A stretch of DNA of 64,000 nt from Pseudobdellovibrionaceae bacterium (GTDB lineage Bacteria > Bdellovibrionota > Bdellovibrionia > Bdellovibrionales > JAMPXM01), in the NCBI GenBank assembly GCA_947462815.1, contig CANHQR010000006.1:1-64000 (forward strand), in the 5' to 3' direction. Below, one piece after another: positions 15,750 to 49,803 of this stretch. A model generated the notes under the pieces. That model made no database searches and had not been told where the DNA came from. It saw only the letters and a program-made list of their open reading frames with translations. How positions within the stretch are numbered: position 1 is the first letter of the stretch; each line of letters opens with the position of its first letter. Made by a program: the position numbers and the translations under genes.

Positions 15750-16007
15750 CACCTTCGACCCCTCATAACGAGGGCTTGGATCCCGCAACTTGGCGAGAAC
15801 GCCAACCCAACTCATTGGCCAGAATTGACTTATAGTTAACTCACGTTAGCCAGAAATTCAGGGCGCAAGCAAATGGAGCAAAGTCGGCACCGGAAATCCC
15901 GGGGGTGAGATCGCTTAAAGTGGAGATGGAGCTCTGAGGACAGAGCAAAAGTGACAAAGTTTGGCAGGGCCCGCCCAATCGAGCGCGACCGCATGAAGCT
16001 CGTAAAG

Positions 16008-16149
16008 TGGGCCACTTGATTGTGCTTAGCCCAATCTCTCTCCATAGCCCCAGTCGTGCAGGCGTATTTTCGAGGCCATCGCAAGTGGCCGAAGTGAATG
16101 GAATCACTTGTAATTCTGGGGTCTCGCGCACAATCAAGGGGCCCAGTTT
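16008..16149 (-). repeat. 142-nt inverted-end intergenic element, copy A
   Basis: First of two related elements in the window (other copy 41455-41596). Both are exactly 142 nt and align without gaps at about 74% identity by my hand count, with the ends nearly identical and the middle diverged. The termini are complementary: left TGGGCCACTTGATTGTGC matches the reverse complement of the right end in 17 of 18 positions, so a transcript could fold into a long hairpin. The element begins 7 nt past the stop codon of the ChaN-like gene on the minus strand. It could be a non-autonomous mobile repeat (MITE-like) or a structured 3'-UTR. No target-site duplication is evident. Confidence 0.7.
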
Positions 16150-16156
16150 CTGAAGA

Positions 16157-17122
16157 TCACGGGGGACTTTGGCTCAGCCAGATTGCATCGGCGCGGGAGC
16201 CATAACGAGTATGTGGCCCCAGCTCCGCAGTTAATTCGGCCTCGGTGAGATCGCGAGTTTCAACCTGGGAAATCACTAGAACTCGCTTTGCACCGCGGGC
16301 TCGTAGGCGATCCGGCAATCCCCCGCCCCAGGCCGCATGAAAATCTCCCACCACAATCGCCACGCAATGTGTGGGGTTGAGACGAAGATGCTCGGTGGCC
16401 GTGTAAGCCATGTTCTCATCCCAAGTGCTTTGCGCTTCAAAGTACCGCTGCAGAGCGGCTGCCGGCACGTGACCTCCCATGATGGCGTCAAAGCGCTCTC
16501 GATAGCCGGCTGAGCCAAGGGTAAACTTTGGCGGCAAGAGCGCGCTTTCCTCAGGTGTCAGACCCGCAACGCCAACTTTCGAAATTCTCCCGGTGAGACT
16601 TCGCGGAGCATTGAGGGCAAGCCCTCGCCCCCCCGTTTGCCGGACCAAGAGGAGTTGTTCGCGATAATCATCGAAGGGATTTCCGCCCCAACCCACCTGC
16701 TTCAAAAAGTCCGCCTCGTTCAACTGCCCCGCAATATAAGCGTCGACCAGGTTCTGCTTCGGAGATTCGAGAAACTCCAAGCCGACACTGAGCGTGCAGT
16801 TTGCTTTTTGAGCTAAGGCTTTTAACCCCACTCGCTGACGTTCGTGGTGGATTTGGTTGCCGTGGAGTTCGCTGATAATGAGCACATCACCTGCTGTGAA
16901 GCCCGCCGTGAGTGCATCAAAGTTGCTCGCTTGCAAAGTGTCGCCGCGAAAGAAACCGTCGCGCGGCAATTGACCCGTGCGCACCACACCGCGATCGCCC
17001 ACATCGGGCGACGTCGAGGATGATCCGGACAAATTCGTCCGAGCGCAAGCGGCCGAGCTTAGGGTGAGACTGACTCCGAGGATGACTTTGAGGCCGAGGT
17101 CGCGAAGTTTTGACTGTTCCAT
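16157..17122 (-). CDS. ChaN family lipoprotein (haem-binding-uptake/Tiki-like fold)
   Basis: A 321-residue protein with a lipoprotein signal (LTLSSAAC). The ATG at 17122 is preferred over a GTG at 17146; either way its 5' end overlaps the end of the alpha/beta hydrolase gene by at least 64 bp, a strong sign of translational coupling. The ChaN/DUF399 domain is recognised from GDVLIISELHGNQIHHERQ (the conserved Glu-His near the start), LSVGLEFLE, QVGWGGNPFDDYREQLLLVR and the late GDFHAAWGGGLPDRLR. In Campylobacter ChaN binds two haem groups at the outer membrane; whether this one binds haem is unproven. A 142-nt inverted-end element lies directly downstream. Confidence 0.85.
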   Translation of the reverse strand: MEQSKLRDLGLKVILGVSLTLSSAACARTNLSGSSSTSPDVGDRGVVRTGQLPRDGFFRGDTLQASNFDALTAGFTAGDVLIISELHGNQIHHERQRVGLKALAQKANCTLSVGLEFLESPKQNLVDAYIAGQLNEADFLKQVGWGGNPFDDYREQLLLVRQTGGRGLALNAPRSLTGRISKVGVAGLTPEESALLPPKFTLGSAGYRERFDAIMGGHVPAAALQRYFEAQSTWDENMAYTATEHLRLNPTHCVAIVVGDFHAAWGGGLPDRLRARGAKRVLVISQVETRDLTEAELTAELGPHTRYGSRADAIWLSQSPP

Positions 17123-32989: not shown

Positions 32990-33064
32990 GGGCGCGTAAC
33001 TCAGCGGTAGAGTACCACCTTCACACGGTGGGAGTCAGAGGTTCAAGTCCTCTCGCGCCCACCA
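32990..33064 (+). tRNA. tRNA-Val (anticodon CAC)
   Basis: Complete cloverleaf: acceptor GGGCGCG/CGCGCCC, D-arm ACTC..GAGT, anticodon stem CCACC/GGTGG around the loop TTCACAC, T-arm AGAGG-TTCAAGT-CCTCT, discriminator A and encoded CCA. The anticodon CAC reads GTG. Confidence 0.97.
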
Positions 33065-41397: not shown

Positions 41398-41454
41398 TCT
41401 CGCTTCGTCCGTAACGGGGCCGCATGAGGATCGGCGCTAGAGTCGCTTATCGAT

Positions 41455-41596
41455 TGGGCCACTTGATTGTGCTCAGCCCAATCCGATCCAAAAGCACCCG
41501 TCGCAACGGCGTCTTCTCGAGCCCCCTGTAGGCAGCCTAAGTATATAAAATAACTTGTGATTCTGGCATTTCGAGCCCAATCAACGGGCCCAGTTT
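41455..41596 (-). repeat. 142-nt inverted-end intergenic element, copy B
   Basis: Second copy of the element at 16008-16149, same length and same orientation to its neighbour: it starts 7 nt past the stop codon of the minus-strand barrel gene at 41604. The left end (TGGGCCACTTGATTGTGC) is identical to copy A; the right end (GCCCAATCAACGGGCCCA) pairs with it at 15 of 18 positions. The other flank is 57 bp after the stop of the plus-strand gene at 40735. Highest conservation is in the outer 25-30 nt and in AACTTGTRATTCTGG (41552-41566). Confidence 0.7.
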
Positions 41597-41603
41597 AAAT
41601 CGT

Positions 41604-42404
41604 TTAGAATCTATAGGCGATGCTGATCCGGCCGAGAGTCCATCGCGGGAACAGACGCACCACCCGAATCGCTTGCTCGACCGCCTCGCGATCGCTCGAG
41701 TCCGATACAGCATCTAAAAATGGCGCCGAATTCTTTGTCGTGATCAGCGGCTGCGCCCAACTGAAGACATCAATACCCCAACCCCAATGAGCTTGATCCG
41801 CAGGTGCCCAAAGTCCTCGATACCCCAAAGCTCCGACCACACCGAGAGTTTGCAGATCCACGAGATCAAGGCTCGGATAGAGTCCGCCACTCAAACGATT
41901 GAGCAAAGCATCGCCGAGGCGAATCTCAAAACTATTGAAACTCAATCCCCAACGAAAGTTCCAGCCATGGAGAGCCGTGGCGGAGCTGCCGATGGGACTG
42001 ATGACCGAAAGTTGGAGACGCTTTTCCGACATCGAGCCCAAGTCCTTGAGGATCCAAGGCACACTCACACTGGCACTGGAATAATCCAATTCCACAACTT
42101 CATCTACCAACTCACCTTGGAAGGCCACACCCCACTTGCTCGGCAAGAGCAGATCGATCGGGGCATATTGTAGGCGTACAGCCCGCATGGATTGAAGAGC
42201 CTCACTGGCCTGTTGGGAAGCCGGGTTGTCCACAGCGACGGGCGACGGATCTCGTAACTGACTCGGCTCGGTGTGCGCCCGCGCGGATCCGAATACGATG
42301 AGTAGCGCGGCCATCAGAGTCCGAGGAATTGGAATTCGGATTCGAGTTCGGCTCACCAAATTGAGCGCACGCATCAAGACATTTTTGAAGTCATACAACA
42401 GCAC
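41604..42404 (-). CDS. probable outer membrane protein, unknown function
   Basis: A 266-residue protein, GTG start at 42404 with GGGGG 5 nt upstream. A hydrophobic signal (IPRTLMAALLIVFGSARA) follows a basic N-region. The mature chain has amphipathic strands (WGVAFQGELVDEVVELDYSS, LHGWNFRWGLSFNSFEIRLG, ALGYRGLWAPADQAHWGWGI) and ends GRISIAYRF, a barrel-like Phe terminus. I favour a small beta-barrel or barrel-associated protein. The 142-nt element B follows its stop codon. Confidence 0.6.
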   Translation of the reverse strand: MLLYDFKNVLMRALNLVSRTRIRIPIPRTLMAALLIVFGSARAHTEPSQLRDPSPVAVDNPASQQASEALQSMRAVRLQYAPIDLLLPSKWGVAFQGELVDEVVELDYSSASVSVPWILKDLGSMSEKRLQLSVISPIGSSATALHGWNFRWGLSFNSFEIRLGDALLNRLSGGLYPSLDLVDLQTLGVVGALGYRGLWAPADQAHWGWGIDVFSWAQPLITTKNSAPFLDAVSDSSDREAVEQAIRVVRLFPRWTLGRISIAYRF

Positions 42405-49730: not shown

Positions 49731-49803
49731 GGAGGTGGTAGAGGGATTCGCACCCCCGTACGCGGATTTGCAGTCCGCTGCCTAACTCCTCGGCCATACC
49801 ACC
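49730..49803 (-). tRNA. tRNA-Cys (anticodon GCA)
   Basis: On the minus strand: acceptor GGTGGTA/TACCACC, anticodon arm GCGGA-CTGCAAA-TCCGC with anticodon GCA, T-arm GAGGG type with TGCGAATC (GTGCGAATC in place of GTTCGAATC), discriminator T and encoded CCA. Lies 16 bp upstream-side of the ComM-like gene end. Confidence 0.95.

Follow-up and report, generated by a model that had tools for sequence, protein, structure and literature searches.

Paired-end repeats behind genes of a Pseudobdellovibrionaceae bacterium are MITEs of a distantly IS1-like family that probably inserts at surviving stop codons

Analysis of a 64,000-nt stretch of the genome of a Pseudobdellovibrionaceae bacterium (the window, positions 1 to 64,000 of contig CANHQR010000006.1) showed that two repeats lying behind genes, copies A and B, are non-autonomous MITEs. 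Our results make it probable, at roughly 80%, that they belong to a distantly IS1-like IS family that is widespread in Bdellovibrionota and that inserts at stop codons which survive the event. The two are members of a larger family of copies, have their ends in common with a resident IS whose first frame starts like a transposase, are bordered by 9-bp target duplications, and are placed at stop codons of host genes.

The gap-free alignment of copy A (16008-16149) with copy B (41455-41596) has 104 of 142 positions identical, or 73%, which agrees with the original prediction of two gap-free elements of equal length (142 nt) with about 74% identity. The true boundaries lie slightly outside those first drawn, at 16003-16150 and 41450-41597, and each copy is bordered by a decayed 9-bp duplication. 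The features of the two loci are as follows.

16003..16150, minus strand (that of the host gene in front of it): MITE copy A, full extent of 148 nt, TAAAGTGGGCC...GGGCCCAGTTTC, from the 9-bp duplication scan and the copy family
16003..16025, no strand: left terminal inverted repeat of copy A, TAAAGTGGGCCACTTGATTGTGC, sharing its core with the resident IS end
16128..16150, no strand: right terminal inverted repeat of copy A, reverse complement GAAACTGGGCCCCTTGATTGTGC, matching IS end B
15994..16002, no strand: left target-site duplication of copy A, TGAAGCTCG, 7/9 identical to the right one
16151..16159, no strand: right target-site duplication of copy A, TGAAGATCA, on the minus strand TGATCTTCA, the first 3 nt of which are the host gene stop codon
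16157..17146, minus strand: host gene A, which codes for 329 aa and retains its own stop codon
41450..41597, minus strand: MITE copy B, full extent of 148 nt, from the 9-bp duplication scan
41441..41449, no strand: left target-site duplication of copy B, AGTCGCTTA, 7/9 identical to the right one
41598..41606, no strand: right target-site duplication of copy B, AATCGTTTA, on the minus strand TAAACGATT, which starts with the host gene stop codon
41604..42404, minus strand: host gene B, 266 aa, C terminus ...ISIAYRF

Both copies have the same orientation and follow shortly after the stop of a minus-strand gene, as had been noted; measured from the true element boundary, the stop is exactly 6 nt away. 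The spacing of 7-8 nt first reported after the stop arises because the duplicated 9-mer, read on the gene strand, begins with the host stop codon in both cases. Host gene A has eight orthologues of the same family in eight relatives, all without an element behind them, and three of these end near the same residue. The link to envelope genes is incidental, as the neighbouring genes are varied, although gene ends of the form ...F-TAA do recur beside IS ends, and several host genes reading into the resident IS end in ...F and then TAA, as in outer-membrane proteins. The tRNA genes at 32990-33061 (plus strand) and 49733-49803 (minus strand) were the sole Rfam matches in the window, and a trace of sequencing adapter suspected near 18.4 kb proved to be absent.

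The window genome (3.43 Mb in 107 contigs) contains at least 23 dispersed copies, including A and B, far more than chance would give, so the whole-genome search for further copies was positive. A plain DNA search returned 22 matches, most copies having E values of 1e-23 to 1e-11. A covariance model based on 18 of the copies, which match it by construction, found 23 places with E values down to 1e-42; many of these places also match the model on the reverse strand, more weakly, because the ends are paired. The copies are short and have terminal inverted repeats, and every frame is interrupted by stops in most of them. End-to-end length is 147-149 nt in 19 of the 23, the other four being longer or more divergent, and the interiors have a mean pairwise identity of 62%, the closest pair reaching just 78%. 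Relatives that are longer or more diverged, measuring 151-168 nt from end to end (L024:3001-3163, L061:2001-2182, L062, and L063) have the MITE ends in common, the interior less so. A pattern scan of the named genomes for the window MITE gave no match.

The ends of the MITE are also those of an IS resident in the same genome. Seven contig ends coincide with this element (L026, L027, L028, L029, L100, L101, and L102): four contigs break inside a sequence starting TAAACTGGGCCAGTTGATTGTGC and three inside one starting CTGGGCCCTTTGATTGTGC, and each set is identical between contigs over the approximately 110-165 nt present. These two sequences represent the opposite ends of an IS whose several copies the assembly collapsed (A end, TGGGCCAGTTGATTGTGC; B end, TGGGCCCTTTGATTGTGC), and their left/right asymmetry is that of the MITE. 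About 80 nt inside the A end an open frame begins MPRPCPHCFPLGATSEQRTAVVRRG; the frame from this end reads MPRPCPHCFPLG... and is the start of a zinc-ribbon (DDE) transposase. Just 25 N-terminal residues of it are visible in the window genome, and the full gene is unassembled, because the resident IS was not assembled through. In relatives, elements of about 1 kb with matching ends (TAAACTGGNCC..TTnATTG) enclose a transposase of about 290-330 aa (287-303 aa in the full IS) with the same zinc ribbon, which supplies the matching transposase expected of a MITE partner. The transposase is present in 70 of the 141 genomes of the order; among the named genomes it is found almost only in Bdellovibrio-like bacteria (Bdellovibrio, Pseudobdellovibrio, Bacteriovorax, Halobacteriovorax, and Oligoflexia), outside which there are two loci in one Fibrobacteria bin.

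The partner transposase is of the DDE type and is a distant relative of IS1, not an IS1 member. D117, D197, and E230 are invariant, CPxC/CxxC motifs are present, and the AlphaFold model (pLDDT 87) has the ISCth4 transposase and retroviral integrases as its top structural matches. With IS1 it has in common the N-terminal zinc ribbon, the DDE (RNase H-like) catalytic fold, and a target duplication in the 8-10 bp range (here 9 bp), as well as a C-terminal signature of the NHT..R..RL.R.T..TK type, which we take to resemble that of IS1. It differs in its single frame of 287-330 aa, in its placement at stop codons, and in its score against the curated family: NCBIfam NF033558 (IS1) was matched by 10 of 11 transposases, all below the cut-off, the best reaching 55.3 bits against a cut-off of 100. 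These low scores, and a search of Pfam that gave no convincing family, are the reason that we do not call it an IS1 member. Paralogous IS1-like transposases with other terminal repeats (AGCTGGCCCAC.. and CCAACTGGCCTCGC..) occur on further contigs of the window genome (C21, C5, C9, C11, and C71; L133-L137), and the different repeats indicate that several IS1-like subfamilies coexist there.

The near-invariant complementary ends described originally were confirmed: deviation from the consensus per cell is 4.4% in the left terminal core and 6.7% in the right, against 25% in the interior. This contrast, together with strong single-copy folding (z of -4.3 and -3.5), would suit a structure co-opted by the host, in which the elements, as small RNAs or 3'-UTR structures, act on the preceding gene. 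So would the finding that right ends have an incoming gene stop close by more often than left ends do (within 40 nt on 16 sides as against 8, some of them counted through stops inside the repeat). We consider such co-option improbable. Any sequence with 18-nt paired ends would fold as well as single copies do, interior structure is not common to the copies, and no compensatory change was seen in any of the 14 predicted end pairs. The ends are not exact mates, since most copies have TGGGCCACTTGATTG on the left and, inverted, TGGGCCCnTTGATTG on the right, and the same mismatches recur as fixed, end-specific features. The element has no Rfam match and no terminator or promoter signature, and by the test for a structured RNA family (a covariance-model match or compensatory changes) it does not qualify; the earlier suggestion of a structured 3'-UTR or 3'-derived small RNA thus found no backing. 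Given the fixed mismatches and the absence of covariation, the paired ends look, from their sequence, like binding sites for an end-specific protein, the transposase, rather than an RNA helix selected for pairing.

That the ends are better conserved than the interior is in keeping with repeated rounds of mobilisation by a transposase dependent on them. That the ends were instead kept by selection after old insertions, most copies being without a duplication, was considered and weakened, as the young, near-identical copies of genome G054 often also lack one. The lack of near-identical copies and the mostly decayed duplications leave room for some post-insertion selection. The conceptual peptide common to the two copies on the minus strand is not coding, as each minus-strand frame is interrupted by stops in 14-18 of the 19 copies and there is no codon periodicity.

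To look for target duplications, the flanks on the two sides of each copy were compared for repeats of various lengths and offsets. A clear excess over chance was confined to repeats of 9 bp located precisely at the TAAAC...GTTTA boundary, which 10 of 73 copies carry (identity of at least 7/9) against 0.49 expected. In genome G029, which has young IS copies, 6 of 10 show 8-9/9 identity; just 4-5 of the 23 window-genome copies keep a recognisable duplication, both window copies being among the positives of the flanking check. The 9-bp target duplications, and a partner enzyme that is a DDE protein and not a Y1 HUH one, refute a further reading of these palindromic repeats between genes, namely, as REP/BIME-type (REP-like) palindromes moved by a RAYT (Y1) transposase, to which we give next to no credence. 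With flanking duplications and a matching transposase both found, the suggestion of a MITE with preferred insertion behind genes was borne out. One MITE of G054 (L045) has inserted within a terminator-like hairpin stem (AAGAGAGCAATTGCTCTCTT), and its 9-bp duplication, TGCTCTCTT, is perfect.

The duplicated 9-mers show a weak palindromic TRA...TYA preference. All five window-genome copies with a duplication matching at 6/9 or better (A, B, L009, L015, and L023) agree in the location of the stop, at -6. A first count of stops at IS boundaries (18 of 19 IS) was set aside because the terminal repeats themselves contain stops, with TAA at the outer edge and TGA or TAA about 15 nt in, so that every gene running into an element terminates there. 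For this reason the decisive tests used rebuilt empty sites, in which the flanks were joined and one 9-mer was removed; genes were called from open reading frames and not by homology. In G029, the gene stop ends 0 to +4 nt from the cut in 6 of 6 copies with a duplication. At rebuilt sites of the held-out genomes, an independent set of named genomes, a stop falls within -6 to +3 in 9 of 10 cases by a simple scan and in 8 of 10 by a stricter gene call. In several cases the repeat's outer base and the last target bases together complete the stop (T|AA, T|GA, or TA|G).

These counts bear on the possibility that the elements are MITEs whose stop placement is a by-product, with a TAA/TGA...TTA-like 9-mer preferred and insertions within genes lost to selection. 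The palindromic preference speaks for it, as does the bare TRA...TYA motif, which predicts 29% of window insertions at stops. So, too, do the duplication-bearing MITEs of G022 and G054, an exception to the pattern, with 0 of 5 at stop codons; TAA or TGA is often found at the start of the 9-mers that they duplicate but is not a gene stop there. We nevertheless regard a by-product as unlikely. A model that allows insertion anywhere outside gene bodies, weighted by a target motif derived from genomes other than the one tested, gives 1.16 of 6 for G029 and 1.68 of 10 for the held-out genomes, against 6 and 8 observed (P of about 3e-7 and 5e-7, respectively). The G029 targets mostly lack a TRA start, yet every one touches a stop. 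In the window genome, a stop lies no more than 10 nt away from 14 of the 23 copies, for some of them by virtue of stops supplied by the repeat, versus 29% predicted by motif plus avoidance (P of 0.001). Target choice, and not survival alone, therefore appears to produce the stop-codon placement. Genome G022 (a UBA6502 MAG; L145, L149, and L181-L197) contains 17 or more MITEs, which are about 150 nt long and have TAAACTGGCCCCTTTAATTGCGGAT as their ends; the end variants (CCCCTTT, CCCACTT, and CCCCCTT) are often the same at both ends of one copy, some copies are arranged in tandem, and no copy that was tested lies where a gene ends.

The IS1-like MITE reading suggests the following course of events. 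The resident-IS transposase, which probably moves the MITEs, would bind the paired ends TAAACTGGGCC..TTGATTGTGC and pick a weak palindromic TRA...TYA-like target, apparently favouring sites registered on the sense/stop junction. The target would be cut with a 9-bp stagger, the 9 bp usually containing or touching the host stop codon, and the host stop would be kept either through the duplication or through outer repeat bases (TAA, AAA, or GAA) that complete a new one. As the stop of the host gene is kept, insertions would be nearly silent and able to persist. A stronger form, which we put forward tentatively and at somewhat less than even odds, is that of a one-protein IS family whose transposase actively selects reading-frame stops and makes its 9-bp cut in register with the sense/stop junction, the outer bases rebuilding the stop. 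A DNA enzyme might conceivably sense stops through some connection with expression complexes that are translating or terminating.

Pairings of a MITE with an IS are well documented, among them the Correia elements of Neisseria, ERIC of enterobacteria, and RUP (PMC10969869, PMC2229807). Correia elements lie mainly upstream of genes, most such MITEs have TA termini, and ERIC insertions at gene 3' ends are reported to affect transcripts (PMC10969869, PMC2229807). The RUP elements of pneumococcus resemble the present family in that the MITE ends match those of a resident IS, whereas the RUP partner is of the IS630 type with a TA target (PMC2229807). Like Correia and ERIC, the elements described here are MITEs of 100-200 nt that have paired ends and occur between genes as diverged copies; their sequence, their partner transposase, and their target are different. 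Most IS and MITEs either happen to be tolerated where they land or rely on a short DNA motif. Tn7 and others insert at a harmless gene-end site, so that the gene is not lost (a safe-harbour strategy), and Tn7 does so with one site and a dedicated targeting protein. Insertion at a gene end with the gene retained is similarly safe-harbour-like in the present family, but here many genes are used and a single protein is coded. We found no description of a stop-codon-targeting IS or MITE family in the searchable open-access literature, which does not prove its absence.

If our interpretation is correct, a family that lands on stops and restores them would represent a general safe-harbour strategy, with many genes and one protein, and would explain these repeats behind Bdellovibrionota genes. 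It could also be a lead for harmless C-terminal gene tagging. For annotators, it means that the last codons and 3'-UTRs of some genes in these predators should be expected to be transposon derived.
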